DNA of 64,000 nt from Actinomycetota bacterium (GCA_020438795.1 JAGQTY010000004.1:1-64000); one strand, 5' to 3'; shown: positions 6,001 to 26,134, counted from the stretch's first letter. Notes: a model not told the origin generated them from the sequence alone. Numbers and translations are program-made.

Positions 6001-7661
6001 CCACGGGGCTAGATTGCGGCTACTCCGTCTTTGACGACAGTGTCCCCGGTCTTCTTGAATTCCACCGGAGCAACCGATTCCCACTGCACTACATCGCCCC
6101 CAACATCACCACCCAGCAGGCCGAATCAGGAGGACCCCTGCAGCCAGGTTGGGGCAACGGATTCCTCAAGAGTGCCGGAACACAACTACCAGCCAATGCA
6201 CCTGACGCCGGACTCTCCGTGATCGGCGGCTACTACTTCACCTCCCTCATGATCGAGCTGGGACTTGCAACGTCCCCAGTCTCCTTCTACGGAACGGAAA
6301 TCACCTTCAATTCCGAACAGGATCAGAACACGTGCGTGCAAGCCCTGCTGTATGCGGCGGCCAATCTCAACTACGTGAATGAAGATCCCGATCGCAGCAT
6401 CTCGGCATGGCCCACAGCACAGACCCTGTGCGGGATCACGCCGACCAGGGGTGGTGGTCGAATGGCGGGGGTGAACCTCACCACGAACAACTACCCAACG
6501 CCGGGCGGGTTGACCGAAGATCAGATGCAGATCATTGAGAACTGGCAGGACGAGGCCAACAACTTCTTCGTGAATCAGGTCTACCACAACTTCCAGGAAG
6601 CGGCTTCGGAGATCCCAGCCGGAGCCCTCGTCAGCAACTACATTGCCGGCAGCAGCGGAAACAGCAACCAACAACCCGGCCTGAACCTGATCGTGGACAA
6701 CGCACAATATCCGGGATATCACCAAGCGAGCCCCGTGTATGCCTACCAGGACATCAACGGCAACCAGCCACTCCTAGAAGCTGACAACGTACTGTGCACT
6801 CAGCTCAGTCAGATCCTGTGTCCCTGGGATCAGGGCTGGAGCTTCGGGGCCGCCTCGCCACAAGGCTCCCAGGCGCCGCCACCACTCGGGGAGTACGGCG
6901 CCTACCAGGCCCTCACCGTCATGGACATCCCCTTCCCCTCCTGCACCGCAGCACAGAACAGCACCCAATCCCCCAGCCCAACCCCCAATGAGCTGAGCCC
7001 CAGCAGCACCCCCACAACTCCGCCAACCAGCGAACCGAGCACCTCTGTGTCACCAACAGAAACCCCTACGGCCACAGCGTCGCCCTCCCCCAGCGCATCG
7101 CCCACACCCTCTACCTCAGTCAGCCCCTCAACGACACCCACCACGCTCACCTTCAACAGCTACGAAGTCGTCCCCCTCAACATCAACCAGCTGAGCCTGG
7201 TCGTCCCGGACGGAGACGCAGCATCAGTGACGCTCGGCGACTACTACCTCAGCCTCGAAGCAAACCCAACCGCCCCCCCGTCAGCAAACGCGGAACCAGA
7301 CAGCAACCCCTACCCCTACTCGCTGCAGCTCTACAACAGCAGCGGCACCCAACAGGTATGGGACGGAGACAACTGGGTCGACGAACCCACCACCCAACAG
7401 GGAAGCGCGTTCTCCCAACTGGGCCAGCTCTACGGGGCAAGCGACGAAGGCGTTCTATACATCTCCAGTGAAGGCCGAGCCACATTCCTCAACTGGGCGC
7501 CACAAAGTCCCTTCGACATCAGCAGCGGCGGCACCGTCGACTCCGGCGCCAGCGTGACCATCTCCCCCACAGTATCCACTCCAGGCGACGCCCCTTGGAA
7601 CGAATGCCTCCACGGCCAAACCATTTTCGCCAACCCCGCCGTCGGCTACTCCACCGGCTGA
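3..7661 (+). CDS. Giant Ser/Thr-rich surface/secreted protein with DUF11-like repeats (5' partial)
   Basis: The frame is open to the left edge, so the true start is outside the window; numbering here is from the TTG at 27, which gives 2,544 residues. The N-terminal ~700 residues are basic and carry three copies of a W-x-C-N4-C-like pattern (near residues 82-92, 209-218 and 359-368), typical of DUF11-type immunoglobulin-like repeats. Residues ~740-1900 are a long Ser/Thr/Gly/Asp-rich stretch of short alternating hydrophobic segments, suggesting repeated beta-structure. Residues ~2312-2372 form a Pro/Thr/Ser linker, followed by a ~170-residue C-terminal domain. No C-terminal LPxTG/LAxTG motif or terminal membrane helix is visible. 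The composition suggests a cell-surface adhesin or matrix protein, but I do not recognise the family and the export signal lies outside the window. Confidence 0.85.
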   Translation, partial: EAPEQPRSLPTAISAAAWGLRTVGNRSAPVSLDRLELGRRGAAVYGLEWSWSGDGGPILRLSGVPEGVSVAAAQVPSFVSRQLRAQVQGCTSAGSGQWDCVVHQPEQGGMGASALLLTASGSAALGKAAVSVAVLRDGQQETATTSLGVRVRNRPVNRIALAQTGDSLVSAGQPAVLKYLAYRLGGPRRVKQETLQLHRLVPPALLNGRSRTKGKGAWRCVGNDCRFTRAVAVGKRLPSVGGFVQPTAAQARRFTRVEGAQATVTRWRSVASLSSGGKQALDNQLAVTRYQKPKKAGRTPLQAVAAVKGPRVQVKVTSQHAVRARGLADYQVTVNNGGSSNARNVRLRLRPPPGSRFLQATAEESKAWRCSGTSCQLRGSLASHSVAVSLHVRIQHEHVRKGRRALQAEVRWSGSRRDYGGRHRAKATGAWLAPLGVKLRAPNGRQVLGGTQNQTALFAEVSNAGSKTFDYAFKQLCSQQCPRVTWPGDRVGAQVNPEFSAMVEPRTNVSKRTKLRFQVKVISSDGAVATARTSLTVDPGPGDVATWDPNLASSGPPTPDEMQERLNSPRDPATDRHLAARPLVKARINTRPGITRVTPGRTGTLRLKVKPNQGSRASRVKKVEWTINGRPVRQVKHARLRKGGYQLRLKTPKREAKYPILVRTTLIHPKGRFTGTDEAIIPAAPHGGRAAKSDRATPQIRGVPHASPLFQPSTSVTSQGAQIYSAAASVEASTFCELFQDLADLAADEVDGTQFSVGSATITIGSLNLSTGSCSTSTASIKLSNSSLAVNGVDLTGLTATITSTGITLGAASITFPGDDTAIAISNVSLSAAWTSAGLQSLSGSLTLSGVPYFDLPDGWDITTATLSFASSPADLSLSLTASDTATNTTGTAPSATLSGTVSADETASLNMTVTNIFTLTSSSDSTVSFSGCGTVTGSSAGVSFGVAAWATTSSSNASIDCSTPTSMSCASPPSADFQLFDNVTLNTACVALGSSGLSFNGSADIDVDGTPLSLTLTGSATNSRNWNLSLSADGTASLGGMDLDLSAAGSLSYAEPTLSFSITAAVQTEQVQSFLNGSGLSLASASATLSNACPANDAGCKTSNVTLQLAITGTDSYLNSSLTVNTTILVDLSNGDFEFEVAVSDAFGPAELNLANVEFFAEDAGSGDLPDLVTSSSNPCTSTSSSSVSSPSPTGSSDLTVGFVASATVATGSDSTATFTVAAVYTDSSQSSYCLYGDATGNSLDIGPYEQGSTASIGFVYSSSKTVEVSGLPSGIPARTPTFWMSIQTPTAQLPAGAPSEIIAYLSITLSSDDVPSGFKIGATLDFAEADYETLTNNGTSNGSVQLTSLGLDVAISWGSKDSVSLTFTAGFNVNTPGAGTPGDQGYIEAASVPLVGQISFTAYSKGGAITLSVGTSNPCQAGQSYPNAFGISGFTLNCFTLSATLSENITADEFLFTASFTLETSGDDVSSFATDLGLSDDPTVTLTVEIGASDTCFAFSITPQTTGDTVLNWGGVITATDISFLMAPLGTCTTIINGTTTTSKETFAFVFDGTLLGDTVDVNIAIELHPNVVVDASINIGGFSLGDILTIDNTELNIDFSTSIEGVQSDLALSFSGGISLLDVGSVAVQGNLSTDFAPVQGTADISFNLAGSADASLLGIFGGDLNLAVGATLGMIDNEFSVSQLYVNAQAELDFLMFKGGAGIEFDYANNALQSFGINFNVGFDFFIGSIDGGFAMTYNKSQGNNVTFTFDVEFTLGFWIFKKTWEWSDSFTEPLGQPVDRAKLGFLGSLLPENATKNTWEITYDMYNDYYFMREDPTPFYDAIALASADSSFAWRSGQGEGLPLPAIETVFDQDMPEGYPSGITNPQIKVVNSNGNASVGLSGGPSQTNTQLEVTATLPQSPLVAYYQAQYPDDSSNWDACPSSGVTKTFTINLPATTGGDAASNWAWVMMDVNWRLQVASWLERIQVAQTMFGTTQTTTTPASVGYQVPTTPLPTGLDCGYSVFDDSVPGLLEFHRSNRFPLHYIAPNITTQQAESGGPLQPGWGNGFLKSAGTQLPANAPDAGLSVIGGYYFTSLMIELGLATSPVSFYGTEITFNSEQDQNTCVQALLYAAANLNYVNEDPDRSISAWPTAQTLCGITPTRGGGRMAGVNLTTNNYPTPGGLTEDQMQIIENWQDEANNFFVNQVYHNFQEAASEIPAGALVSNYIAGSSGNSNQQPGLNLIVDNAQYPGYHQASPVYAYQDINGNQPLLEADNVLCTQLSQILCPWDQGWSFGAASPQGSQAPPPLGEYGAYQALTVMDIPFPSCTAAQNSTQSPSPTPNELSPSSTPTTPPTSEPSTSVSPTETPTATASPSPSASPTPSTSVSPSTTPTTLTFNSYEVVPLNINQLSLVVPDGDAASVTLGDYYLSLEANPTAPPSANAEPDSNPYPYSLQLYNSSGTQQVWDGDNWVDEPTTQQGSAFSQLGQLYGASDEGVLYISSEGRATFLNWAPQSPFDISSGGTVDSGASVTISPTVSTPGDAPWNECLHGQTIFANPAVGYSTG

Positions 7662-8283: not shown

Positions 8284-9018
8284 GTGATGAGCGTTGATAC
8301 TCGGCCGCAACTATTGCCGCCGTCGGGCCCACCGCCGCGCCAGCGGCGGCGCTTCAGCCTGGCCGCACTGCTTGGCGAGATCCTTATCACGCTGGGCGTG
8401 ATCGTCCTGCTGTTCGTGGTCTGGCAGCTCTGGTGGACCGATGTGACTTCAAGGGCCAGTTTCGAGGCCACCGGCGACGCGCTGCAATCCGAATGGCACG
8501 CCTCCGCTGGGGATGCTCCGAAGCAGATCAGCGAGCCCGACTACGGTGAGGCGTTCGCGCTCATGTACATACCAGCCATCAAGGACGCGGTCTGGGGAGT
8601 GCCTGTCGTCGAGGGCACCAGCCGCGATGAGCTGATGCGCGGTGTGGGCCACCATCCCGACGCCGCGCTGCCCGGCGAGGACGGCAACTTCGCCGTCGCT
8701 GGTCACCGCGTGACATACGGCAAGCCGTTCAACCAGATCGCCGAACTCCGACCTGGTGATCAGGTGATCGTCGAGACAGAGAGCGGCTACTACACTTACG
8801 AACTCGACAACAGTGAGATCGTCGAAGCATCCGAGGGCTGGGTTCTGCAGCCCAACCCGCAGGCCGAGATCACCAGCAAGCCCGGCGATCCGCTGATCAC
8901 CATCTACTCCTGCCACCCCATGTATAGCGCCGCACAGCGATACGTGTACTTCGGGCACCTGGTCGAGGAGACCACCAAGGACAATCCACCCGCGGCACTC
9001 GAGGACAGTTCAGCATGA
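8284..9018 (+). CDS. Class E sortase
   Basis: A membrane-anchored cysteine transpeptidase of 244 residues, with a cytoplasmic Arg-rich N-terminus, one transmembrane helix at ~25-50 and an extracytoplasmic sortase domain at ~90-230. The catalytic set is present: His141 in FAVAGHRVTYG, Cys210 in TIYSCHPM, and Arg219 in SAAQRYVYFGH. The TxxSCHP motif and overall length fit actinobacterial class E sortases, which attach LAxTG-type proteins to peptidoglycan. The start may be GTG 8284 or the ATG three bases later. The stop overlaps the next gene by 4 bases (ATGA), so the two are translationally coupled. No obvious sorting-signal substrate is encoded in this window. Confidence 0.93.
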   Translation: MMSVDTRPQLLPPSGPPPRQRRRFSLAALLGEILITLGVIVLLFVVWQLWWTDVTSRASFEATGDALQSEWHASAGDAPKQISEPDYGEAFALMYIPAIKDAVWGVPVVEGTSRDELMRGVGHHPDAALPGEDGNFAVAGHRVTYGKPFNQIAELRPGDQVIVETESGYYTYELDNSEIVEASEGWVLQPNPQAEITSKPGDPLITIYSCHPMYSAAQRYVYFGHLVEETTKDNPPAALEDSSA

Positions 9019-13596: not shown

Positions 13597-14181
13597 TCAG
13601 ATCTCCGCAGCCCCGAACGGAACACTGAACCGGTCGCACCACAACACGACGGACGTGTAGTCATCGAGATTCAGATCGGCGGGCAACTTGTAGTTCTGGC
13701 TTCCGATGTTGCCCTTCATGTCGCCGAGGTTGACCCAGCTGCCGTCCCTGGCTGCAGCCGCATCCTTGGCAGACGTGTTCGTGATCCAGACCTTCACATC
13801 GGGACCGTTGTCGGTCTCGAAGTTCTCGAACCGAACGAACCGGTCCCCGTTGGCCGTCTCGATGATCTTGACGTCCCCAGCCGTCGGATGGTCGAGGCTG
13901 ATGAACGTGCCGCTGGCCAACGTCTCCGGCCCTGACGAGGCAGGAGCACCGGACGGCCCAGTCGACGCGGATGCCGCCGCCGGGCCGGCCGGAATGGCCT
14001 CGTCCACCTCAACGTTCGTGAACAGCGCCCACGGTTGGAACAGATACATCGCCACGGCGAGGACCGCAGCACCGACAACGAGTACGGGGATGATGACCCG
14101 CTTCCGCCGCCACACAGGCTTGTCTGACTCGGATGTGGCCGTCTCCCTATCGCTCGACCCCACTTCTGCTTCCACCGACAT
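13597..14181 (-). CDS. DM13-domain membrane protein
   Basis: 194 residues: a short cytoplasmic N-terminus, one transmembrane helix at ~29-48, a Pro/Ala/Ser/Gly linker (~62-85), and an extracytoplasmic DM13 domain (~88-194). The DM13 signature is clear: RFENFETDNGPDVKVWI at ~117-133 and YTSVVLWCDRFSVPFGAAEI at ~175-194, with the single conserved Cys182. DM13 domains are proposed to act in electron transfer or redox through that Cys. The ATG at 14181 is preferred because GAGGAG lies 4 bases upstream, although the frame opens 14 codons earlier. It converges with the transglutaminase-like gene. Confidence 0.9.
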   Translation of the reverse strand: MSVEAEVGSSDRETATSESDKPVWRRKRVIIPVLVVGAAVLAVAMYLFQPWALFTNVEVDEAIPAGPAAASASTGPSGAPASSGPETLASGTFISLDHPTAGDVKIIETANGDRFVRFENFETDNGPDVKVWITNTSAKDAAAARDGSWVNLGDMKGNIGSQNYKLPADLNLDDYTSVVLWCDRFSVPFGAAEI

Positions 14182-14451
14182 GTCACTCCTCGCGCCGTTA
14201 CCCATCAACGGATCTACCGCCACAGTTGGACGACATGGGCAACAACGGCACGCCGAAGGCGACCATTCCGCAGATCGTGCCGTCGGAGATTACGCCTTCC
14301 TTACGTGAGGGGCTTCTCCCGCCAAAGACTCATCGATCAGCTGTCCAGTCAACACGGCGACCAGTTCACCGTCAGTCAAGCCGCCTACGCGCGAAGCAGG
14401 TTGGCCTCCGACGACGATAGTTGCGCGCATAACCCGATTCTGGCCGGTGCG

Positions 14452-15783
14452 TTACCCGATGGCTTGGCCACGGAAACAACCGAGCGTGTACGGGTAGCTC
14501 AGTGTCGCGTGGTAGTGGTACCCAAGTGAGCCGTGGTCGTGGCCGTGGCAGACGTCCAGATCGCTGTTGGTCATCTGCACGCCACCGCTACCGTAGTAGC
14601 CGTACAGCGGGTAGCCGTCCAGGGCGTAACCGACGATGCCGGAGTGACCGTCAGCCAGCCGCGCGGTGTCCTTTTCCAGTTGCTCGGAAACGAAGTGGTA
14701 GTGGTACTGGTCTTGGGCCGGATGGCCACCGTAGACGTCGACGATTTCGTGGGCCACCGCGTCGTCGCCACGGGCGTCGACGGCGTTGTAGATCACCACA
14801 CCGTTCGTGCCAATCGCGATCGCACCCATGGACAGGCAGCCGGGACTGGCAGCTGGCGTGGGTGAAGCCGGGATCGTGAAGGAATGGTTCTGCGCTGCCG
14901 GGACGCCCGGGTTGGCGTCGATGGCGGTGAGCAGCGGGTACTGGGTCATCGGCCAATTCCCGATCTGGCCACCGGTCGGCAGTCCGGTGCTGGTGATGGT
15001 GCGACTGCCGCCATTTACCGATTGGCCGTAGCTGCCCGTCATCGCTGACCCAGCCGGGAGCCACGGCTTGTTGGTGAAGTCCCAAGTGTTGTTGTCGAAG
15101 TCGATCCAGGTAATCGCCGAGGTCTCGCTGCCTGGCGCCGATGGGTTGCCAGCCTGGCAGGCGTACATCTTGCCGACCGCCGGAGTGGTGGTGGTGAGTT
15201 TGATATCGCCGAGGGGGAGTTGTTCGCAGTCGGCACCCTCGCAGAGAGATGAAGTGATGAAGTACGGCGACAACGGATTGTTGTCACCGGAGCCGCTGTC
15301 AGGCTCTGATGCGCTGCTGTCCGTGGTGAACGACACCTTGGTGGCCTTTCCTGTTCCCTCGGCGTTCTTGGCGCGCACCTTCACCACGTGTCGACTATCA
15401 ACCGCTAGGTTCTGCCAAGTCTTGGCGAACCAACCGTTGCTGCCGGTCTTGAGTTTCCCAGGCTTGGTGGACTTCCACGAACCCCAGGAGCCGTTCTTCT
15501 TGATCCGGAGTTGATAGCGTTTGATCCTGCTATCGCCGCTGTCGTTCGGGGCCTTCCATTTGGCTGTTGCCGTGCTAGTGGTGATTTTCTTGCTGGGGAC
15601 TGTGAGTTTGCGGACCTTGCCTGGGGTACCAGAGTCGGCGGCGGTCACGGCTGCAGTGCCGTCCATTCCCGGCGAGGTGGGAGTCGTGCTGTCGGAAGTA
15701 TGCGCCGATGCTGGTGTGATGACCAGTGCACCGGCCAGCGCCGTAGCAGTTGCCGCTGCAACCGCGGTCATTCCGATCCTCAT
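14452..15783 (-). CDS. Secreted fibronectin type III - YHYH domain protein
   Basis: 443 residues starting at an ATG preceded by AAGGGA. A Sec signal peptide occupies ~1-27 (hydrophobic core, ending ASA-HT). A fibronectin type III domain spans ~52-155 (WKAPNDSGDSRIKRYQLRI, then VKVRAKNAEGTG). The remainder is a YHYH domain with DQYHYHFVSEQLEK and, near the C-terminus, HDHGSLGYHYHAT; the GYALDGYPLYGYYG segment between is also characteristic. YHYH proteins are secreted and of unknown function; His-rich motifs suggest metal binding. A second YHYH protein is encoded at 59228-60328. The gene is monocistronic, followed by 270 bases with no gene. Confidence 0.9.
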   Translation of the reverse strand: MRIGMTAVAAATATALAGALVITPASAHTSDSTTPTSPGMDGTAAVTAADSGTPGKVRKLTVPSKKITTSTATAKWKAPNDSGDSRIKRYQLRIKKNGSWGSWKSTKPGKLKTGSNGWFAKTWQNLAVDSRHVVKVRAKNAEGTGKATKVSFTTDSSASEPDSGSGDNNPLSPYFITSSLCEGADCEQLPLGDIKLTTTTPAVGKMYACQAGNPSAPGSETSAITWIDFDNNTWDFTNKPWLPAGSAMTGSYGQSVNGGSRTITSTGLPTGGQIGNWPMTQYPLLTAIDANPGVPAAQNHSFTIPASPTPAASPGCLSMGAIAIGTNGVVIYNAVDARGDDAVAHEIVDVYGGHPAQDQYHYHFVSEQLEKDTARLADGHSGIVGYALDGYPLYGYYGSGGVQMTNSDLDVCHGHDHGSLGYHYHATLSYPYTLGCFRGQAIG

Positions 15784-16412
15784 AGTGTCCCTTCCCGGGT
15801 TCGTGTTGCCACGGGAGCAACTGCGCACCAAGCTGACACCAGGCTACGGGTGAAATGCGCGATGCGGCGCTGGCATGGGCGGCCTTCCCCCAAGAGGGGC
15901 AAGGTCGCCAAGGACGTCGTCGCTGCTACGCGTGCTCATACGGACCCCTTGTCGAGTCCTCGCAAGAGCGGGGTGGCAGCACGGTAAGGAACGGCGAGAG
16001 GGACCGTCCCTCTCGCAGTTGTGGGCCGTGGCCACCAGGTGGCTAGCACCCGATCTTGTTTGTCCCTGAAACTGTCGACCGGACGGTGGCGACCAGGTAT
16101 CAGGCCGCCATCAGTCAGGTCAGGTCAGGTGTCAACGGTCATCCAATGTCCCTTCCAACGGCCACGGAATGCCCATCCGAGCAAGCGCCACAGCGCAGGG
16201 GCATGACGGACCTCGCCGACCCGCAGTCGGGTGAAGTCCCCAAGATCGTCTTCAAACTCAGCCGGCAACCGGCCAGCGCCCTGAAGTCTGCGAGCGATGC
16301 ATTCTGGCGTGTGTTGCGCCGCCGTCGGGATTCGCCATGCGCCTTCCTCCCCCTCCAGAATGTACCGGACTCTCGAATCACCCGGATCAAGCAGAAGCGT
16401 CCGCCTCCCAGG
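15784..16412. other. 629-base stretch without a supported gene
   Basis: The region lies between the start of the Fn3-YHYH gene and the end of the transglutaminase-like gene, both leftward. Open frames here are short, Arg/Pro-rich and lack ribosome binding sites. It holds a 21-base palindrome (15995-16015) and three tandem CAGGT units (16116-16130). It presumably contains the YHYH promoter and the end of the UbiD-operon transcript. Confidence 0.6.
15995..16015. repeat. Perfect 10-bp inverted repeat, 1-base centre
   Basis: Arms CGAGAGGGAC and GTCCCTCTCG are separated by a single base. It could be an operator for a dimeric regulator; the 1-base centre makes an RNA hairpin loop unlikely without opening of the top pairs. 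It sits ~210 bases upstream of the YHYH start and ~400 bases past the end of the upstream operon. Confidence 0.6.
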
Positions 16413-17231
16413 TCAGGGACCTGCGGAAACGGTTCCACGATCAGCCACAGACTCAGGGTTCTCCGGGATCTCGGTCGCGCATCTCTGGTTGGATTCGGCA
16501 TCCCTGGTGGACCCCCTGAAACCGAGCGAGTCCCCACGGTCTGGCGGGATGCCGAACTGCGGACGAACGACCAGGTCCAGTCCAGGCCGAATCAGCGACT
16601 CGGGGCAGCCTCTCTCACGGAAGGTGAACCACTCGTTGACCCCGGCGCAGAACCTGTCGTATTGATCAACATCGGCGGAAGTCCACGAGGACTTGCTCTC
16701 AACCAAGTATCGGGTTCTTTGCTCGAAGGAGTCGTGCACGACCACGTTCTCGCAGTCCACCGCGACCGCACAGTTCGCGATGCCGTCCCACGTCGGCGTC
16801 ACATGGGCACCGATCCGGGCCAACGGCAAATCATAGGTGGCATCCACGATCACCCACTTGCCTTCGACTCGGATCTGGATGTTCTCATGGTTGCACTCTG
16901 GAAGTGCGCGAGCGAGTTCGAGCAGATGCTGCGGGTAGTCAAGTTGCTGCGCCGCCCACCGCATCGGATAGAACAGGTAGCGAACGTCGAATCCGAGCAG
17001 CGAGTACATGCACCCCAGCACGGTGTGCTTCGGAGTGCACGTGCCACGCTCATGCGTCAGTACATGTCGCGCCCAGGCCCGCGTTTTCAGGCCACGCTTC
17101 TCGTAGTAGGGCATATCCCGCACCCGGGGGAACAGCTGGATCCGGGCGGAAGACTCCTCGCTGTCAGATGTGAGCCAACTCGCCAGATACGGTCTGCAAT
17201 CATCGCAAACGCCGTCAAGAAGAGACCGCAT
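16413..17231 (-). CDS. Transglutaminase-like cysteine protein, last gene of the UbiD operon
   Basis: 272 residues. A cysteine-protease/transglutaminase-like core is visible: Cys65 in ERGTCTPKHTVLG, His115 in CNHENIQIRVEGKW and Asp130 in VIVDATYD, in the right order and spacing for a C-H-D triad. The N-terminus has a CDDC pair (residues 9-12). The last ~60 residues are polar and poorly structured. There is no signal peptide, so it is probably cytoplasmic. The ATG lies 6 bases after the UbiD stop, with AAGG just upstream, so it is co-transcribed with the decarboxylases. Its role there is unknown: processing, amide hydrolysis of a conjugate, or an unrelated passenger are all possible. Confidence 0.8.
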   Translation of the reverse strand: MRSLLDGVCDDCRPYLASWLTSDSEESSARIQLFPRVRDMPYYEKRGLKTRAWARHVLTHERGTCTPKHTVLGCMYSLLGFDVRYLFYPMRWAAQQLDYPQHLLELARALPECNHENIQIRVEGKWVIVDATYDLPLARIGAHVTPTWDGIANCAVAVDCENVVVHDSFEQRTRYLVESKSSWTSADVDQYDRFCAGVNEWFTFRERGCPESLIRPGLDLVVRPQFGIPPDRGDSLGFRGSTRDAESNQRCATEIPENPESVADRGTVSAGP

Positions 17232-17237
17232 CGTCCT

Positions 17238-19019
17238 TCAGCTCCCACTGGCCTTGTCCGATTCGTCAACGTGGGTGCTACTCACCTTCTCCGGCTTGTG
17301 CTCCACAACTGAAGTAGGCAGATTGGTGGTCGACATCTTTCGTCGCCGCGGCCATGTCTCACTACCGTTCGTCTCCCAGTCACTGACAGCTGCACGTTGC
17401 GCGGCTTCGTCCCAGCGCGGATCGTCGACGCCGAGTGAATAGCCGTACCACGGATTCGTCGGCCGCAGCTTGGGGAGTCCGAGGGAGTCCCACAGTTCCT
17501 TGGCTGCCTCCATGTGCGCTTGTTTCGGCAGCGCAACGGCGGGCATGGGTCCCTTCTGCGTGGCGTTGATCAGGACGGTCGAGTCGATCTCCATGCCTGC
17601 TTCGGCCGGAGCATGTCCGTGTGAACGGTACGGCAGCACGACCAAGTCCTCACGTGGGTTGCAGCGAAACGCCATGGCCCACAAGACGTGGTCAGTGTTG
17701 CTCGGGTCGATGTCCTCATCGACAGCGATGCAGAACTTGCCGACGGCGGGTTGCAGTGAGGTGGCTCCTTCCAGGGCTCGCCAGATCTCCGTCTTCGGGG
17801 TGCCGTGTTCGAAGACGATGAACAGGAATGCCCGCAGGTTGGTGAGTGGCTCGTGCATGACGACCTGCCTGACTTGCTTGATGGCCAGATGATCGCGCAG
17901 GTGCTCCAGGTAGATGGGTTCGTAGGCGAGCTTCTTGATCACGCTGGACTCCGAGGGAGTCACCTGTGAGATGAGGGAGGTGATGACCGCCTTGCGTCGG
18001 CGAGTGATGGCGGAGACCTCGAAGATCATGTTGAACTCCTCGAGGGACATGTAGCCGTGACTCTCTCCGAAGGGGCCCTCCGGCTCGAGGTATTCGTCGT
18101 CGATGAAACCCTCGACAATGACTTGTGCGTGAGCGGGTACGAGCAGGTCGACGGTCTTGGCCCGGACGACCTCCACCGGTTGTCCGGCGAGGGCACCGGC
18201 CACGCGGACCTCATCATTGTCGAGGGGCAGTTTCTGCGGGCCACAGTATTCGACGGCGGGCGGCGCGCCCAGGACGACCGCAGCCGGCATCTTCTCGCCG
18301 CGCGCCCGGTACTTCTTCCAGTCCTCCCAGCCACCGGCCAGTGTTGCACGTTCCATCATCACGGCAACCCGGGTCGAGGATTTGAGGTTCCCCCGGTACA
18401 CGCCCATGTTCTGGATGCCGTTGTCAGGGTCTTTGGTGACCCAGCATCCTGCAGTGAAATAGGGCGCCACGTCGTAGCCCGGGGTTGACACTGGGATGGG
18501 TAGGCCGTCCAGGCCGCCACCCTCCTTGGTGAGGTCCTCCCCGGTGACTACGATCTCCTGACAGGGCGCTTGTGTGACTTCGACAGGATCGACAGGTTGC
18601 TCCATGGACGTCAGCCAGTGACCGGCGATCTGGTCGATGGGCACACCCATCCCGACGCTGTAGATGTCGGGGTTTCCTGCCATGACCCCGACAGCGACGT
18701 CGATATCGTAGGTGCGGCCCTTGCCATCGACCACGTTGGTGAACAGGAATCCCTTTCGTTCGTCCTCCGGGATTCCCCCGCAGTACTGCCAACGCACCAG
18801 CGGGTGCAGCACGGTGTCCTTGTTCACGGGTACGTCGACCTCCACGAGGAGATCCTTGGCACGCAACGCGTCCAAGTGTGCCTGCATGTCGACCGAGGAC
18901 TGGGGTTCTGCTGGCGCAGGTGTTGCCGACCGCTGTGGTGGCTGCAGATGAGGCGACTGCGGGCTGGCTGCCGCAGCGTGCGGGTCCATCGACCGGTCGG
19001 ACTTGTCACTGGCGCTCAT
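17238..19019 (-). CDS. UbiD-family decarboxylase (copy A, 593 residues)
   Basis: A prenylated-FMN-dependent (de)carboxylase of the UbiD family. The N-terminal ~45 residues are a Pro/Ala/Ser-rich extension. The core shows HPLVRWQY (~77-84), the GAPPAVEYCGPQ segment, EGPFGESHGYMS (~322-333, the active-site Glu motif region) and TPSESSVIK (~361-369), and FEHGTPKTEIWRAL marks the C-terminal part. It is a close paralogue of copy C at 21076-22842, which shares the same landmarks and length. The ATG at 19019 has AGGAGG 6 bases upstream and overlaps the split-barrel gene by 14 bases. It would depend on the UbiX encoded in the same operon for cofactor. The substrate is unknown. Confidence 0.9.
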   Translation of the reverse strand: MSASDKSDRSMDPHAAAASPQSPHLQPPQRSATPAPAEPQSSVDMQAHLDALRAKDLLVEVDVPVNKDTVLHPLVRWQYCGGIPEDERKGFLFTNVVDGKGRTYDIDVAVGVMAGNPDIYSVGMGVPIDQIAGHWLTSMEQPVDPVEVTQAPCQEIVVTGEDLTKEGGGLDGLPIPVSTPGYDVAPYFTAGCWVTKDPDNGIQNMGVYRGNLKSSTRVAVMMERATLAGGWEDWKKYRARGEKMPAAVVLGAPPAVEYCGPQKLPLDNDEVRVAGALAGQPVEVVRAKTVDLLVPAHAQVIVEGFIDDEYLEPEGPFGESHGYMSLEEFNMIFEVSAITRRRKAVITSLISQVTPSESSVIKKLAYEPIYLEHLRDHLAIKQVRQVVMHEPLTNLRAFLFIVFEHGTPKTEIWRALEGATSLQPAVGKFCIAVDEDIDPSNTDHVLWAMAFRCNPREDLVVLPYRSHGHAPAEAGMEIDSTVLINATQKGPMPAVALPKQAHMEAAKELWDSLGLPKLRPTNPWYGYSLGVDDPRWDEAAQRAAVSDWETNGSETWPRRRKMSTTNLPTSVVEHKPEKVSSTHVDESDKASGS

Positions 19020-19536
19020 CAGTTGCCTCCTGCATCTCCCTGTCGGGGCTGGGGTCCCCGAGTCGTCCGTCTTCGACCTCCGCGGACAGCGATTGTCCGA
19101 AGCCGAGGGTGTTGTCGATCAGCCGGATCCGCGTGACCCGCAGTTCCCACGGCACAGCGGACCTGGCCGACGCACCGTTGATCAAGGGCTTGGCAAAGGG
19201 GTACTTGGCGAGATAGGTCTGTGCCGCCCGATCCGTATCGCTGGCGCGAGCCGTCGTCCCGGTGAGTTGGAGCCCGGTGATCGTCTGCCATGATCGGACA
19301 ACCGGGTGGATGGTGGCGGCACATCTCGGGACTTGACCCAGGTCGAGGCAGTGCCGCGAGCTGGGGGATGACCAGAAGTACAGTCGAAACTCGTCGGCGG
19401 CGAAGAACACGTCTGCCGCCCATGGGCCTTCGGGGCTCACGGTTGCCAGCGTCAGCACATCTACCTCAGCCAGGATGGATCTCACGGAGCCGTCGAACGA
19501 CTCCTGGTCGATGATCGCAGTGCCCTGCTCGTTCAT
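19006..19536 (-). CDS. Pyridoxamine 5'-phosphate oxidase-like (FMN split-barrel) protein
   Basis: 176 residues. The split beta-barrel pattern is visible: VDVLTLATVSPEGPWAADVFFAAD (~26-49), then LYFWSSPSSRHCLDL, and an ITGLQLTGTTARASD strand. The family binds FMN, F420 or haem, and many members are uncharacterised reductases. The ATG at 19536 was chosen over a longer frame from 19650 because the latter would overlap the upstream UbiD by 62 bases and adds only polar residues. It is embedded between two UbiD genes and overlaps the next start by 14 bases, so it belongs to the operon. A possible role is flavin reduction or reduction of the decarboxylated product, inferred only from context. Confidence 0.82.
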   Translation of the reverse strand: MNEQGTAIIDQESFDGSVRSILAEVDVLTLATVSPEGPWAADVFFAADEFRLYFWSSPSSRHCLDLGQVPRCAATIHPVVRSWQTITGLQLTGTTARASDTDRAAQTYLAKYPFAKPLINGASARSAVPWELRVTRIRLIDNTLGFGQSLSAEVEDGRLGDPSPDREMQEATDERQ

Positions 19537-19588
19537 GTCCGCGTCCTGCTCGTACCGTTCGGGTTCGTTCTCCGCTTGATTGGACCTG

Positions 19589-20998
19589 TCATGTGATGCC
19601 GTACTTGTCCCACTGCGCCTTGACGCGAGCCTTGATGTCGGGGTCATCACACAGGGATGGGAAGTCTTGACCCTCCTCCTGGTAGTCGAAGATGGGTCCG
19701 GTTGCGTCGATGCCCAGCTTCGTTCCCCAGTTTCTTCGGGTCTGTGAAGCGTCCAGGCTGGTCTGTGGGCATCGCGGGATGATCAGGAGATCCCTATCTG
19801 CCTGCACGTGGGTGGCAACCGCCCAAGCCACGTCGTCACGGTTCCTGATATCGATGCCCTCGCCGACGACGGTGACGTGTTTGATGTAGCCCCCGACGTC
19901 AGGGTCCCCGAAGACCTCCTGGATCACTTGGCGGACCTGTCCCCGACTGGTCACCCGCATGGAGATGATGAGCTCGAAACCCACCCCCGACAGTGGCATG
20001 TGAACGTCGAGCACACCCTCGACGCTCTGCAGCTTTGCCAGGACGACCGGTTCCATGCCAAGGATGTAGATCAGTCCACCCTCGGACGGGTAACCTTCAC
20101 GTTCACCGTGGAAGATCGGATCGTCCCGGTGCGTGATCGTCGTGATTCGGAAGATGTTGCAGCGGCTCTGATGATCCAGGAAGCCTGTGAATTCGCCGAA
20201 CGGGCCATCCTTGTCCATTTCGCCAGGCATGACCAAGCCCTCAAGTACCAACTCGGCATTTGCCGGTACCTTGAGGCCTGAGTCTTCACAGGTGACGACT
20301 TCGATCGCTTCGCCTCGCAGTCCACCCGCGTAGGCATCCTCACTTGGGGGCTGGTCGAACTTGGATCCGCCGGCCAGGACGTAGCAGGGGTCGGCGCCGA
20401 ACACCACAGCCACCGGCATCGCGACACCGGGGTGCAACCGGCTCCACTTCTCCAGGTGTTGTGCCCCACCCTGGAACGGTTGCATCATGAGACCGGTCTC
20501 CGTGCCGCTGCGATACATCATGCGGTAGCAGCCGACGTTCTGATCGCCCGTCTCGGGATCGGCAGTCACCAGCATGCCCAGTGTCCCTGGGTAGTAGCCG
20601 CCGTCGCCCTCATGCCAGCGGACCATCGGGAACAGCCCATCCATGCTCGCCCGTTCCCCTGTGAGGATGTTCTCCTTACAGGGCCCGCTGTCCACGAGCA
20701 CTGGATCGATCGGCTCCTCGATCCGCTTCATCCACTCAGCCCGAATCGAGACCTGATCTGTGGTGTCGAGATCCATAGCCAGCCCCAGCCGACGCCAGGA
20801 GCGCCCGAACAGCTCGGAGAGCACCGGTGTTGATGTCCCTTTCACGTTCTCGAAGAGGACGGCCGGCCCCCCTTCGCTGGTCACCGTGTGGGTGACGCCG
20901 TTGATCTCCCATTCGGGATCGACTTCGGCGCCGATCCGACTCAGTAGGCCCTTCTTCTCAAGGACGTCGACAAACTCGCGCATGTCCTTGTATGGCAT
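19589..20998 (-). CDS. UbiD-family decarboxylase (copy B, 469 residues)
   Basis: This copy has the classical UbiD length. Landmarks are DPEWEINGVTH near the N-terminus, GDQNVGCYRMMYRS (~155-168), KDGPFGEFTGF (~268-278, the catalytic Glu motif region), EGYPSEGGLIYILGMEPVVL, and a C-terminal PRCPQTSLDAS segment. It is clearly more distant from copies A and C than they are from each other. AAGGAG lies 11 bases before the ATG. It follows copy C after 77 bases, in the same operon. UbiD enzymes remove (or add) a carboxylate on aromatic or alpha,beta-unsaturated acids using prFMN; the substrate here cannot be read from sequence. Confidence 0.9.
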   Translation of the reverse strand: MPYKDMREFVDVLEKKGLLSRIGAEVDPEWEINGVTHTVTSEGGPAVLFENVKGTSTPVLSELFGRSWRRLGLAMDLDTTDQVSIRAEWMKRIEEPIDPVLVDSGPCKENILTGERASMDGLFPMVRWHEGDGGYYPGTLGMLVTADPETGDQNVGCYRMMYRSGTETGLMMQPFQGGAQHLEKWSRLHPGVAMPVAVVFGADPCYVLAGGSKFDQPPSEDAYAGGLRGEAIEVVTCEDSGLKVPANAELVLEGLVMPGEMDKDGPFGEFTGFLDHQSRCNIFRITTITHRDDPIFHGEREGYPSEGGLIYILGMEPVVLAKLQSVEGVLDVHMPLSGVGFELIISMRVTSRGQVRQVIQEVFGDPDVGGYIKHVTVVGEGIDIRNRDDVAWAVATHVQADRDLLIIPRCPQTSLDASQTRRNWGTKLGIDATGPIFDYQEEGQDFPSLCDDPDIKARVKAQWDKYGIT

Positions 20999-21075
20999 CA
21001 GCTCACGACTCCTTGCTGTTCCTACGGGCCCTCTCGACGATCCGGGGGGAACCGGCTCCGGGGCGGATCGGTGGA

Positions 21076-22842
21076 CTAATCGTCAGTGCTGAAGTCGTCG
21101 ACGACTGGGAAGCTATCGGGGTAGGTGACGTTGCCCGTGGACTCGTTGTACACGACGGGATGGGCATTGGGGACACCGGCGGTCGGGCCACCGACCTGGT
21201 CGGTATCCACCAGCCGGGCGGTGCGCACACCATTGGCCAGCCAGTCGCCCTCTGCCGCCCGTTTGGCACACGCATCCCACTCGTCGCACCAGTCGCCGAG
21301 AGAGTAGCCGTACCACTTGCGCACCGGCTTGATCTCCGGCAGTCCGGCCTTGTGCCACAGGTCTTTCGCTTCTTCCATGTACTGCTGCTTCGGCAATGAT
21401 ACGGGCGGCATCGGGTACTTGGTGGTTGCGTCAATGATCATCTGACCCTCCCATTCGCGACCGCCTCGCAGCTTCGGTGCGTGACCGTTGGCCTGGTAGT
21501 CGTTGATCTGGACGTCGTGAGGCAGGTCAGTGCGGTAGGCGACTGCCCACCAGATCTCTTCCATCGACTCGGGGTTGATGTCCTCACTGACGCCTATCGT
21601 GATCTTGCCCACCGAGCGCATCAGAATCGTGGCGGCTCGTAGTGCCCGCCAGATCTCCGTCTTGGGCGTGCCGTGTTCGAACACGATCGTGGTGAACCGG
21701 GAAACGCCGATGAGATGGTCGTAGAGCACGACGTCCTTGACGAAGTTGCACTGGATGGTGTTCTGCAGGAAGTTGAGCATCACCCCGTTGTAGCCCATGG
21801 ACTTGATGACCCCTGACTCGGACGGTGTCAGTTCGGAGATCATCGACGTGATGATGGCGTGCTTGCGTTTCGTGACCGCGGTCACCTCGATGGAGTGGTT
21901 GTACTCTTCGGTCGACATGTAGCCGTGGGACTCCCCGAAGGGGGCTTCCATCTCCAGCTTGGTGGGATCGATCCATCCTTCGATGATGATGTTCGCATCC
22001 GCGGGGACCATCAATGGGACCGTCTTGGCCTTGACCTCACGCATCGGCGCGCCGGCAAGCCCGCCCGCGAAGCCGATGTCATTGGCCGAGCCAGGAGTCT
22101 TCTGCGGTCCGATGACCTGGATCGCCGGAGGTGCTCCGACGATCAGAGCCACTGGCATCTTCTCGCCGCGCTCCTTGTACTTCACCCAGTTCTTGTGTGC
22201 GTCACCACCGGTCTGGATCAGCCACATCCCGTTCATCCGGTCGGAGGCCTTGATGTTCACCCGGTTCTGGGAGTAGTTGACCCGACCCGTATCTGGGTCC
22301 TCGGTGATCCAGAGCCCGGTCGAGAAGTAGGGAGCCGTGTCCCACCCCGGGGTGTTGTTCGGGATGGCCAGGCTGGCCAGCCCCTTATCGTCACCCACCA
22401 GATCATCACCCGTCATGACCACTTCGTGAACAGGCGCATCCTCCGACGAGATCTCCACGGGTGCCAGGGGATTGGCGAAGGCTGCCCCCCACTTGGCCGC
22501 GACGGCCTCACGGAGCTGCCGGCCGTCAACTGCCCCGCTGAGGTCGACGGTCGAGTCCAGCCCGAGCGCTGCCGCGTATATCTTCTCCTGGCCAGCTGTG
22601 GTGCCGACGGCCACATCACACGCGCCCTTGTACTTGCGACCATTGCTGTCGGTCACGTTGGTGAAGTAGAAGCCCCGACGATCCGTGGCTTCGATGTCTG
22701 ACACGTAACTCCACCGCACAAACGGATGCAGATGCTTGTCCTTGTTGATCTCATCATCGATCGTGTAGAGCAGGTCAAGCTTGTCCAAGCGGGACAGGTA
22801 GTCCTGCAGATCCGGGTACTGTCGTGCGGGCGCATCGGTCAT
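21076..22842 (-). CDS. UbiD-family decarboxylase (copy C, 588 residues)
   Basis: A long UbiD-type protein paralogous to copy A. Shared landmarks are HPFVRWSYVSDI (~39-50), a DVAVG..AGQEKIYAAALG segment, EAPFGESHGYMSTEEYN (~304-320), TPSESGVIKS (~348-357) and FEHGTPKTEIWRAL (~392-405). Relative to copy A it lacks the Pro-rich N-terminal extension and reads EAPFGE where A reads EGPFGE. The start at 22842 has AGGAG 8 bases upstream and is 11 bases after the UbiX stop. It is directly co-transcribed with UbiX, whose product prFMN it should need. Copies A and C may form a heteromer, as in multi-subunit UbiD-type carboxylases; this is inference. Confidence 0.9.
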   Translation of the reverse strand: MTDAPARQYPDLQDYLSRLDKLDLLYTIDDEINKDKHLHPFVRWSYVSDIEATDRRGFYFTNVTDSNGRKYKGACDVAVGTTAGQEKIYAAALGLDSTVDLSGAVDGRQLREAVAAKWGAAFANPLAPVEISSEDAPVHEVVMTGDDLVGDDKGLASLAIPNNTPGWDTAPYFSTGLWITEDPDTGRVNYSQNRVNIKASDRMNGMWLIQTGGDAHKNWVKYKERGEKMPVALIVGAPPAIQVIGPQKTPGSANDIGFAGGLAGAPMREVKAKTVPLMVPADANIIIEGWIDPTKLEMEAPFGESHGYMSTEEYNHSIEVTAVTKRKHAIITSMISELTPSESGVIKSMGYNGVMLNFLQNTIQCNFVKDVVLYDHLIGVSRFTTIVFEHGTPKTEIWRALRAATILMRSVGKITIGVSEDINPESMEEIWWAVAYRTDLPHDVQINDYQANGHAPKLRGGREWEGQMIIDATTKYPMPPVSLPKQQYMEEAKDLWHKAGLPEIKPVRKWYGYSLGDWCDEWDACAKRAAEGDWLANGVRTARLVDTDQVGGPTAGVPNAHPVVYNESTGNVTYPDSFPVVDDFSTDD

Positions 22843-22853
22843 CGCATCTACTC

Positions 22854-23564
22854 CTATTGTCGGTACGTTGCTTCCCAGAGGTTGGTGGAGGGCATGTCGC
22901 GCGGCACGCGAACCGGTGGCCCATCAGGGGACTGCTCGCCCACCGGCTTCCTGCTCCGGCTGCTGGGAAGGGTGTCGAGATCCTCGCCCCAGCGCCGGAG
23001 GGATCCGGTGTCCAGCCCGAACAGGTCCAGAGCGCGCGAAACACTGTGATCCACGATCTCGGTGATGTCCCGAGGACGTGCATACATGGCAGGGACGGGC
23101 GGACAAATGATTCCCCCCATCTCTGTCACCGACGACATCGAGCGGAGATGACCGGCGTGGAGAGGTGTTTCCCTGACCATCAGCACCAAGCGGCGTCGTT
23201 CCTTCAACACGACGTCTGCCGCGCGAGAGATGAGACTCCCAGTGATCCCGTTGGCGATCTCCGAGAGGGTCTTGATCGAGCACGGGACAACCATCATGCC
23301 CAGCGTCCGAAACGACCCTGAGGCGATGCTGGCTCCAATGTCGCTGGCCGAGTGCACCACATCAGCGGCCTCCTCCAACTGCTCGGCCCGTAGGTCAGTT
23401 TCCGTCACGAGCGTTCGTCGGGCTGCAGAGGACATCACGAGGTGCACTTCGATCTCCAGCGGCGAGAGCAGTTGCAGCGTTCGGTAGGCATAGAAGCTTC
23501 CTGACGCACCGGTCACAGCCACGACCAGACGGGCCGGGGTCTTCGCCGCCATCATGATCGCCAC
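22854..23564 (-). CDS. ubiX: Flavin prenyltransferase UbiX
   Basis: The enzyme prenylates reduced FMN with dimethylallyl phosphate to make prenylated FMN, the UbiD cofactor. 236 residues. The flavoprotein (UbiX/Pad1) signature is clear: VAVTGASGSFYAYRTLQLL (~15-33), MVVPCSIKTLSEIANGI (~90-106), and LVLMVRETPLHAGHLRSM (~126-143). The C-terminal ~40 residues extend past the usual ~190-200 length as a polar tail. The start is a GTG at 23564; in-frame ATGs 9-12 bases further in are possible. It is the first gene of a leftward operon with three UbiD genes, and its promoter region carries the tandem palindromes next to tetR. Confidence 0.93.
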   Translation of the reverse strand: MAIMMAAKTPARLVVAVTGASGSFYAYRTLQLLSPLEIEVHLVMSSAARRTLVTETDLRAEQLEEAADVVHSASDIGASIASGSFRTLGMMVVPCSIKTLSEIANGITGSLISRAADVVLKERRRLVLMVRETPLHAGHLRSMSSVTEMGGIICPPVPAMYARPRDITEIVDHSVSRALDLFGLDTGSLRRWGEDLDTLPSSRSRKPVGEQSPDGPPVRVPRDMPSTNLWEATYRQ

Positions 23565-23819
23565 TCGGAGCGAACCTCAATCGACCTGGTCCCCGCTGTG
23601 CAACATCTGGGTTCTGCTCCAAGCCACAAACCACCCGGGCTCAGCAGCACGACCGAGGAAAGACTGATGCACTGGCTGCCGCTCCCCCTGGTTCGTCCAC
23701 GGGGACGCCCCGGACAATTCAGCAAGACCCCACTCGGTGCCAACACGGCACATCCCTCCCGCAATACGAGCAGTCCAGTCAGGACCCCGCTGCTTGCTGA
23801 AGCTGACGCTAGCATGAAC

Positions 23820-23833
23820 TGAATCATGATTCA
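23820..23833. promoter_or_regulatory. Predicted TetR operator 1 (TGAATCATGATTCA)
   Basis: A perfect 14-base palindrome in the divergent ubiX/tetR region, of form TGAAT-N4-ATTCA. Its start is 22 bases (about two helical turns) from operator 2. The same half-sites recur upstream of the PrpF-like gene. Assignment to the adjacent TetR protein is inferred from position and recurrence. Confidence 0.7.
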
Positions 23834-23841
23834 GGCATAAT

Positions 23842-23855
23842 TGAATAGTGATTCA
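23842..23855. promoter_or_regulatory. Predicted TetR operator 2 (TGAATAGTGATTCA)
   Basis: The second TGAAT-N4-ATTCA copy, 8 bases after operator 1 and 28 bases before the tetR start codon. It overlaps the expected core promoter of tetR, which fits autorepression. The 22-base phasing puts both sites on the same DNA face, allowing two dimers to bind side by side. Confidence 0.7.
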
Positions 23856-23883
23856 CTCGTCTGGTTGTCGGTAGGGTGGATTC

Positions 23884-24549
23884 GTGCACACGGATTCCCT
23901 TGCGGCCGAAGCCAGCAGCGAGACGCTAGGCCAACCTCGGAGCAAGCGAGAACGCACCCGCATGCGCCTCATTGAGGCCGCCAAGCAAATCCTGGCCTCG
24001 AGAGGCCCGGAAGCCGGCGTCGCAGAGATCACCGACCTCGCTGACTTGGCTGTCGGATCCTTCTACAACTACTACTCCGGGAAGGAAGAGCTCTTCGAAG
24101 TCGCGGCCAACGAGGCCGTCACTGCATTCGAGCAGTTCATGTTCGAATCTACCGCCAGCCTGAGCGACCCTGTAGAGGTGCTGAGCGCCAGGATCCGCCT
24201 CTTCGGGCGTTCGTCCGAGAGTCACGAACTGGCAGCACACATCATGGTCCGCACCTTCTCAGAACAACTCGGCTTACACGCGGGTTACCGGCCGGGTGCC
24301 ATGGACGACCTGCATGCGGCGATGGCAACGGGCAGGGTGGCGCCCAAGCACCCCGAGGCAGCCTTGTCTGCGATTGTCGCCTCGGGGGTCTCGCTACTTG
24401 CGCGGCGCCTGGCAGACCCGAGTATTGGCCCGCAGGCCGTTGACGACTACACCGAGACGATGCTGGTCATGATCGGGCTCGGCCAGGAAGAAGCCGAGGA
24501 ACTCGCGCATGGCCCGCTGCCGACATCCGGGACCGACAACCCGGATTGA
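23884..24549 (+). CDS. TetR-family transcriptional regulator
   Basis: 221 residues beginning at a GTG. The TetR helix-turn-helix occupies ~22-70, with RTRMRLIEAAKQILASRG and then the recognition region LADLAVGSFYNYYSGKEELF. The C-terminal ligand domain (~75-205) is helical and unassigned. It is divergent from the ubiX-ubiD operon and immediately upstream of the PrpF-like gene. Three TGAAT-N4-ATTCA sites flank it. It most likely represses itself, the UbiX/UbiD operon and the PrpF gene until an acid or CoA-ester ligand is present; the ligand is unknown. Confidence 0.92.
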   Translation: MHTDSLAAEASSETLGQPRSKRERTRMRLIEAAKQILASRGPEAGVAEITDLADLAVGSFYNYYSGKEELFEVAANEAVTAFEQFMFESTASLSDPVEVLSARIRLFGRSSESHELAAHIMVRTFSEQLGLHAGYRPGAMDDLHAAMATGRVAPKHPEAALSAIVASGVSLLARRLADPSIGPQAVDDYTETMLVMIGLGQEEAEELAHGPLPTSGTDNPD

Positions 24550-24780
24550 GGACTGCTGATCCCGGGTTTGGGGCGACGGCGGCAGGTGCTTGTCCCGGGG
24601 CGACGGCCACCACCCGGCAGTTGCGCGGCAGGCAGCCGACGTAGTTCCGGTGGACTCATCGTATGAGCCTGCAGACCATCCTGCGACCAACGACCTGGTC
24701 GCGCTAGAACCGGCGGAGAGACCGTGCTTGAGGTCCGCTGTCCAAGGATGGGCAGGTTGGCGGGAAGCAGACCAAGGAAT

Positions 24781-24794
24781 TGAATTCCCATTCA
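24781..24794. promoter_or_regulatory. Predicted TetR operator 3 (TGAATTCCCATTCA)
   Basis: The third copy of TGAAT-N4-ATTCA, 35 bases upstream of the preferred start of the PrpF-like gene. The spacer differs from operators 1 and 2 but the 5-base half-sites are identical. It suggests that the PrpF-like gene has its own promoter under the same regulator rather than only read-through from tetR. Confidence 0.6.
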
Positions 24795-24829
24795 GAACTA
24801 GCCGGCGAAACCCCGGCCTCTCTGCGAAG

Positions 24830-26134
24830 ATGCCACTTGTGAGCTACTTCCACCATGACCGCAACCTCGAACAGATCCTGGCGCCCATCACATTGATCCG
24901 CGGCGGTAGCAGCCGGGGCTTCTACTTCCAGGGCAACAACGTCCCCAAACCCGGGAAGGGCCTTGAGGAATTCCTCCTGGCTGTCCGGGGATCACCGGAC
25001 CCCATGGGCATGGACGGCTTGGGGGGCGACACGATCCTGCAGTCGAAGACTGCGATCGTCTCGCCTTCGGCACGTCCGGATGCGGACGTCGACTACACCT
25101 TCATCCAGATCTTCCCCGATCAGCCGGCGACCGTGACCTACAAGATGAACTGCGGCAACATCTCGGCCGGAGTGCCGGTGTTCGCGCTCATGAAGAACAT
25201 GATCCCTGACGTCACAGATGGCTCCATCACCGTCCGAGCGTTCTCCACGAATACCCAGAAGATGATGTACATGACCCTCGACGTCCTGAACGGCGAAGCC
25301 AGGGTGAATGGCTCGACGAGCATCGGGGGTGTCCCTGGCACGGGCGCCGACATCGTGGTCGACTTCCGGGATCAGGGGGGTGGTTTCACCGGCAACACCT
25401 TCCCCACCGGGAACCTCGTCGACACCGTCACACTGTCCGATGGCAGTCGCGTGGACGTAACGATCATGGACATGGTCAACATCTGTGGCTTCTTCAACGC
25501 CGAGCAGTTCGGGATCGGCTGCACCGGCCTGGAGCTGCCCGCCCCCGACGGCAGCATCCTCGCTCCGCCCAATATGCTGCCTCGGCTCACTGAGCTCCGG
25601 CTGAAGATCGCGGAACTGATCGGGTGGGACCAGTACTCGAAAGACACCATCGGCAAGGCCACGCTGCCCTTCGCCGTCTCGGTCACGCACCCGAAGGACT
25701 ACTCAGATCTTGACGGGCATACGGTCAGGGCCTTGAGCATCGACCTCGTGGCTCGTTTCTACCTGGAATCAATCATGCACAGCGCTGCACCGGGTAGTGG
25801 GGCGACCTGCCTCGCTGCCGCGGCCGCCGTGCCCGGAACGATCCCGAACATGTCGCTGGCTGAGAGCCCAATGAAGTCCGGCACCGGCGGCGACTTCACC
25901 CTCGGACACCCGTCCGGAACTTTCCGTGTGCACGTGGAGCCCGTGATCGGCAACGACCCCCGGGCAGTCACATACTCCGGATTGAGTTTCCCAAGAACGG
26001 CGAGGATCCTCTGCGACGGAACTGTCTACATCAGGAACGATCGGCCACCCGAGCACTCGGCATGGCTGGAGGCTGATGAGCTGACGGCCGCCTCGTTCTT
26101 CCTCAAGGGTGACGACATCTCAGTCCAGCGCTAG
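24830..26134 (+). CDS. PrpF-like isomerase (4-oxalomesaconate tautomerase / methylaconitate isomerase family)
   Basis: 434 residues in the two-domain diaminopimelate-epimerase-like fold used by PrpF, which moves double bonds in unsaturated di- and tricarboxylates. Landmarks are TLIRGGSSRGFYF (~18-30), GGDTILQSKTAIV, the MNCGNISAGVPVFAL segment with Cys108, MVNICGFFNAEQFG, and a C-terminal GHPSGTFRV segment. The ATG at 24830 was chosen because the family starts close to this point; the frame opens 80 codons earlier but those residues are low quality and cover operator 3. It lies downstream of tetR in the UbiX/UbiD cluster. A PrpF next to UbiD decarboxylases suggests an unsaturated polycarboxylate intermediate. 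Confidence 0.88.
   Translation: MPLVSYFHHDRNLEQILAPITLIRGGSSRGFYFQGNNVPKPGKGLEEFLLAVRGSPDPMGMDGLGGDTILQSKTAIVSPSARPDADVDYTFIQIFPDQPATVTYKMNCGNISAGVPVFALMKNMIPDVTDGSITVRAFSTNTQKMMYMTLDVLNGEARVNGSTSIGGVPGTGADIVVDFRDQGGGFTGNTFPTGNLVDTVTLSDGSRVDVTIMDMVNICGFFNAEQFGIGCTGLELPAPDGSILAPPNMLPRLTELRLKIAELIGWDQYSKDTIGKATLPFAVSVTHPKDYSDLDGHTVRALSIDLVARFYLESIMHSAAPGSGATCLAAAAAVPGTIPNMSLAESPMKSGTGGDFTLGHPSGTFRVHVEPVIGNDPRAVTYSGLSFPRTARILCDGTVYIRNDRPPEHSAWLEADELTAASFFLKGDDISVQR

Follow-up and report, generated by a model that had tools for sequence, protein, structure and literature searches.

We analyzed a 64,000-nucleotide stretch of DNA from an Actinomycetota bacterium (GCA_020438795.1 JAGQTY010000004.1:1-64000), hereafter the window. 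A cluster at 16413-26134 encodes UbiX, three UbiD-family proteins that we call UbiD-A, UbiD-D, and UbiD-B, a flavin mononucleotide (FMN) split-barrel protein, and a transglutaminase-like protein; genes for a TetR-family regulator and a PrpF-superfamily protein diverge from them (Table 1). Family assignments with Pfam and NCBIfam profiles confirmed all eight genes at the places and in the families given by an initial annotation made from the sequence alone. That annotation had also joined ubiX through the transglutaminase-like gene into one leftward operon; indeed, the successive gaps are 11, 77, 52, -14, and 6 bases, including a single 14-base overlap. The tetR and prpF genes do not abut, being 280 bases apart.

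Table 1. Genes and operator-like sites of the cluster (positions in the window).
Feature	Position	Strand	Description
Transglutaminase-like protein	16413-17231	-	272 residues; weak PF01841; Cys65/His115/Asp130; last gene of the operon
UbiD-B	17238-19019	-	593 residues; HmfF-branch prenylated-FMN (de)carboxylase; PF01977
FMN split-barrel protein	19006-19536	-	176 residues; PNPOx/YhbP-like; PF01243; NF002900 below cut-off; start most likely ATG 19536 rather than GTG 19650 (214 residues)
UbiD-D	19589-20998	-	469 residues; canonical-length UbiD; PF01977; nearest E. coli UbiD
UbiD-A	21076-22842	-	588 residues; derived paralog of UbiD-B; PF01977
UbiX	22854-23564	-	flavin prenyltransferase; NF004685 (249.5 bits) and TIGR00421 (225.7 bits), both over cut-off; first gene of the operon
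Operator-like palindrome, site 1	23820-23833		TGAATCATGATTCA; ubiX-tetR gap
Operator-like palindrome, site 2	23842-23855		TGAATAGTGATTCA; ubiX-tetR gap; 22 bp from site 1
TetR-family regulator	23884-24549	+	PF00440 and TetR_C_40
Operator-like palindrome, site 3	24781-24794		TGAATTCCCATTCA; 35 bp ahead of the PrpF start
PrpF-superfamily tautomerase/isomerase	24830-26134	+	434 residues; PF04303, 275 bits; start ATG 24830, not the mechanical call at TTG 24590

A scan of species-representative genomes revealed UbiD-A and UbiD-B together with UbiX in five further metagenome-assembled genomes (MAGs) from lakes, labeled as four other phyla: Desulfomonile, Competibacteraceae, Synechococcus lacustris, Lentisphaeria, and Methylococcaceae. 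A split-barrel or LpdD-type protein accompanies them in four of the five and a PrpF in three. The gene orders are as follows. With C standing for a third kind of UbiD, Competibacteraceae has A-B with a convergent UbiX-split barrel pair; Synechococcus has A-UbiX-C-PrpF-B; Desulfomonile, on short contigs, has TetR-A-B, A-C-PrpF-C'-B, and two copies of B-UbiX-split barrel that are 95% identical; Lentisphaeria has C-MmgE/PrpD-PrpF-C and A-LpdD-B-UbiX; and Methylococcaceae has a B fragment and, at a contig end, A-UbiX-split barrel. UbiD-A, which is 63-76% identical to its five lake copies, was found only in A/B clusters and, in the clusters surveyed, never without UbiD-B or a UbiD-B remnant. The recurrence of the gene set in unrelated freshwater-lake bacteria marks it as a genuine functional unit that they have in common. 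The co-occurrence envisaged in the initial annotation thus held for UbiD-A, UbiD-B, UbiX, the split barrel, and PrpF, but UbiD-D, the transglutaminase-like protein, and a close PrpF orthologue were not seen in these unrelated genomes; the transglutaminase-like gene and UbiD-D are local additions.

Several observations bear on how the cluster reached its host. UbiD-A and UbiD-B occur in only 1 of the 166 genomes of the order, that of the window itself, which suggests that the cluster was gained laterally. In the UbiD tree, UbiD-A proteins group across labeled phyla, pairing Competibacteraceae with Synechococcus (support 100/99) and Methylococcaceae with Lentisphaeria (98/98), as transfer would predict. 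No relatives of UbiD-A were found in viral contigs. The cluster starts immediately past an RNR-NrdR-LexA-helicase block on its right flank that is syntenic and 49-83% identical in genomes from the same family; this conserved synteny indicates that the contig is the host's own and rules out contamination. As for the MAG labels, a 5.3-kb contig (L034/L035) is found, with two differences, in bins named Synechococcus lacustris and 'Geobacter', so at least one of these two labels is probably wrong.

UbiD-A and UbiD-B are 46% identical to one another, and each is about 30% or less identical to UbiD-D. The top solved-structure match for both is HmfF (6h6x/6h6v), which a maximum-likelihood tree places as the sister (98/90) of an extensive clade, made up of long UbiDs, to which both belong. 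Within the B-like long UbiDs, UbiD-A and the lake UbiD-B proteins form a single clade (100/94), in which UbiD-A (100/100) sits on a long stem. Given this nesting and the long stem, the simplest reading is that UbiD-A arose from UbiD-B by duplication and then diverged, the two being sister paralogs. An attempt to estimate the ratio of nonsynonymous to synonymous substitution (dN/dS) gave saturated dS for UbiD-A, and the AlphaFold models built for A and B on shallow alignments could not be used, having mean predicted local distance difference test (pLDDT) scores of 39 and 32. UbiD-B orthologues are 54-57% identical in the lake MAGs and about 51% identical in rhizobial and Paraburkholderia plasmids; B-like proteins without UbiD-A occur on these plasmids, in Desulfobacterota, and in other Pseudomonadota, and several adjoin ubiX and molybdenum (Mo)-hydroxylase genes of the xanthine dehydrogenase family. 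Separately, a first look with the UbiD-A profile gave 82-89 candidate stretches per genome in two Desulfobacterota (G1062 and G899), where several long UbiDs adjoin Mo-hydroxylase genes; these are apparently UbiD-rich anaerobes.

All three UbiDs exceed the PF01977 cut-off and keep the catalytic Arg and acidic pair: R194/E299/E304 in A, R209/E314/E319 in B, and R159/D264/E269 in D, corresponding to the R173/E277/E282 region of Fdc1. With these residues kept, none of the three looks like a dead subunit. We considered whether A and B had lost the His/Glu of the prFMN metal site but dropped this idea because the same column varies among characterized UbiDs. The position of HmfF His297, a residue important to furan specificity (PMC7976604), is occupied by Ser or Gly in every UbiD-A and UbiD-B sequence, within the motif PSES[GS].

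The initial annotation took the three UbiDs of the operon as the set. The comparison shows otherwise: the third UbiD found in other clusters is C-type, not UbiD-D, making the recurring trio A, B, and C. UbiD-D is closest to E. coli UbiD (phmmer, 237 bits to 2idb) and only 28-31% identical to the C-type proteins of other clusters, which are not its orthologues. C-type proteins have 531-565 residues and are 63-83% identical among the lake clusters. The window's genome (G000) encodes its own, of 545 residues and 51% identity, on contig C33 (L129 10335-13019), where an SRPBCC (AHSA1) gene is followed by the C-type UbiD and then a second UbiX; no TetR site was found at this operon. The same trio, likewise arranged, occurs in genome G009 (L133), which belongs to the same taxonomic order as the window's genome; on plasmid pMNOD02 of Methylobacterium nodulans (L130), which also has the trio, a short UbiX separates SRPBCC from C. 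C-type proteins are present in 2 of the 166 genomes of the order, the window's and one other. With the C-type gene on C33, the window's genome carries A, B, C, UbiX, the split barrel, and PrpF, divided between two locations. Directly beside the C-type operon lies a 2238-residue repetitive protein with an fn3 match (L129 13064-19780).

The product of UbiX is prenylated FMN (prFMN), an uncommon cofactor derived from a vitamin and used by the CO2-removing UbiD family. In four related contigs (L071, L072, L073, and L077), a homologue of the split-barrel protein is encoded next to UbiX, overlapping or directly adjoining it, and the Lentisphaeria cluster has an LpdD-type protein (PF21758) in its place. 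Two characterized proteins offer precedents for such cofactor helpers: LpdD, a chaperone that binds reduced prFMN (prFMNH2) (PMC10865409), and PhdC, which matures prFMN and likewise has a flavin-binding barrel (PMC13040415). From its position beside UbiX and its exchange with LpdD, rather than from homology to PhdC, we infer that the split barrel probably carries or matures prFMN. The E. coli yhbP gene sits near ubiTUV.

The PrpF protein keeps the K73 and C108 motifs of its superfamily. Its nearest solved structure is 3-methylitaconate isomerase (3g7k, 234 bits); the NCBIfam output contained no model for this enzyme (Mii), and the protein scores below the equivalog cut-offs for PrpF (197 of 440 bits) and 4-oxalomesaconate tautomerase (230 of 440 bits). 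A role in the 2-methylcitrate (propionate) route is unlikely, since no MmgE/PrpD was found in the window's genome, which is 88% complete; the sole MmgE/PrpD within such a cluster is that of Lentisphaeria. The transglutaminase-like call is weak: the Cys65/His115/Asp130 triad is present, but the PF01841 match (E = 0.005) is under cut-off. The protein was not found in other A/B clusters, and its membership in the pathway is doubtful.

Control of the cluster by TetR, as the initial annotation had it, is strongly suggested by the operator-like palindromes. The three symmetric TGAATN4ATTCA sites of the 64-kb window are confined to the cluster's two promoter gaps, against 0.05 occurrences expected, an expectation to be read with the fact that we broadened the pattern once a search allowing two mismatches had revealed site 3, so that the count is post hoc. 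Because such sites lie over both promoters, TetR likely controls both the UbiX operon and prpF, tying prpF to the operon. The regulator would presumably act by repression, and a ligand is presumed for it.

Taken together, these data lead us to favor, with some reserve, a laterally acquired, TetR-regulated prFMN decarboxylation module in which the A/B pair and PrpF act on a polycarboxylate. UbiX would make reduced prFMN, and the split barrel would carry or mature it, with the LpdD-type chaperone filling the same place in one relative. The paralogous A and B, both of the HmfF branch, may be a dedicated pair whose substrate would be a (hetero)aromatic or conjugated polycarboxylate, handled either by a heteromer or in two successive steps. 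Removal of another carboxyl group could fall to an additional UbiD, which is C in the module at large and D in the window's operon, and PrpF would shift the double bond of an unsaturated di- or tricarboxylate in the same route. By NCBIfam cut-offs no named pathway matches exactly, and a literature search returned no paper joining UbiD and PrpF with UbiX or a decarboxylase, in keeping with the statement in the initial annotation that the set fits no pathway that can be named. A bolder version of this proposal is possible, though we regard it as speculative: that A and B are obligate partners in a heteromeric UbiD decarboxylase which, with the split barrel as a new class of prFMN carrier or maturase, C, and PrpF, constitutes an undescribed polycarboxylate pathway traveling horizontally in stratified lakes.

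A number of points weigh against the polycarboxylate module. Neither a transporter nor a CoA ligase turned up for the cluster, nor did a downstream pathway, and UbiD-D is without a counterpart in other A/B clusters. Identity between the window's PrpF and its counterparts in other clusters is only 33-37%, and the functional core could consist of just A, B, and UbiX, PrpF being a neighbor by habit. The split-barrel profile matched no PhdC chain at E <= 1, the presence of PhdC (9SRG/9SRJ) in the searched set being unconfirmed. More distant YhbP-like homologues at nine places in eight other Pseudomonadota genomes all lie away from UbiX and UbiD; as none of these eight genomes has UbiX or UbiD beside the homologue, we reject YhbP as a general UbiX partner. 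Finally, the MAG contigs are named much like those in a dataset from oxygen-stratified lakes, Loclat among them (PMC8121793), and a single lake study is apparently the source of all five MAGs.

A rival explanation is accretion, in which a single UbiX and a single regulator serve several decarboxylases that are otherwise unrelated, A and B each have a substrate of their own, and UbiD-D and the transglutaminase-like protein are passengers. The absence of these two genes and of the window's PrpF type from other clusters argues for this explanation, as does the separate unit that houses C, arranged SRPBCC-C-UbiX in G000 and G009 and with ubiX in the middle in M. nodulans. We nevertheless judge accretion unlikely, since UbiD-A is never seen without UbiD-B or its remnant and a single operator set spans both transcription units. 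Catabolism of furan-2,5-dicarboxylate, with A, B, or both decarboxylating it as in the HmfFG system, is suggested by the standing of HmfF as best solved match and sister clade, the shared Arg/Glu motif, and the UbiD/UbiX pairing. It seems very improbable: unlike HmfF, A and B lack His297 and are a paralog pair with C-terminal extensions, long branches separate their clade from HmfF, and the cluster carries PrpF but no genes of the furoate type (CoA ligase, Mo-hydroxylase).

Phenylphosphate carboxylase is built with paired UbiD-like subunits and UbiD reactions are reversible, which gives precedent for a carboxylating complex of the phenylphosphate or benzene carboxylase kind. We think this highly improbable here. 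Against cut-offs of 564.6 and 468.95 bits for the alpha and beta subunits, which are the names used in the literature (PMC7976604), A scores 78/64, B 102/75, and D 176/175; unlike PpcABCD, the operon has no gamma or delta subunits, no phenylphosphate synthase, and no phosphate- or CoA-activating enzyme, and such systems are not known to include a PrpF isomerase. The LpdBCD/VdcBCD hydroxyarylic acid decarboxylases also combine UbiX, UbiD, and a small accessory protein, and the Lentisphaeria relative has an LpdD-type chaperone, but our cluster has extra UbiDs and PrpF, its UbiDs fall far under the VdcC cut-off of 650 bits (D 264.5, B 148, A 109), and its UbiX scores below that of VdcB (233 of 290). 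The characterized-member comparison called for in the initial annotation thus placed A and B nearest HmfF and D nearest E. coli UbiD, without reaching the phenylphosphate carboxylase or VdcC cut-offs. PhdA-PhdB-PhdC (phenazine-1-carboxylate decarboxylase, UbiX, and maturase) resembles the cluster in having UbiD, UbiX, and a small flavin-binding barrel in one operon, but our barrel is PNPOx/YhbP-like and gave no PhdC match in the profile search, and the cluster adds several UbiDs and PrpF. The latter shares PF04303 and its motifs with the PrpF/GalD(LigU)/3-methylitaconate isomerase superfamily, but not equivalog status. We give very little credence to a biosynthetic or tailoring role, for a specialized metabolite or cofactor, in place of catabolism; there is no transporter, and the set is scattered in hosts not known as aromatic degraders (a methanotroph and a picocyanobacterium, if the bin labels hold), but no cluster has a biosynthetic core enzyme, and the MmgE/PrpD and PrpF neighbors indicate small carboxylic acids.

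Most UbiD subfamilies are without an assigned substrate. The polycarboxylate module that we favor has defined partners, making questions of substrate and cofactor directly testable; it offers a duplicated A/B pair, a regulator of simple type, and possibly a prFMN helper that would be the third of its kind. Its spread over lineages in oxygen-stratified lakes suggests a common carboxylic substrate there.

Elsewhere in the window, a 2544-residue open frame beside a sortase gene (27-7661 and 8284-9018) possibly encodes a giant surface protein. Between a WS/DGAT gene and the cluster lie a secreted-looking YHYH/fn3 protein (14452-15831) and an adjoining DM13 protein (13597-14223).

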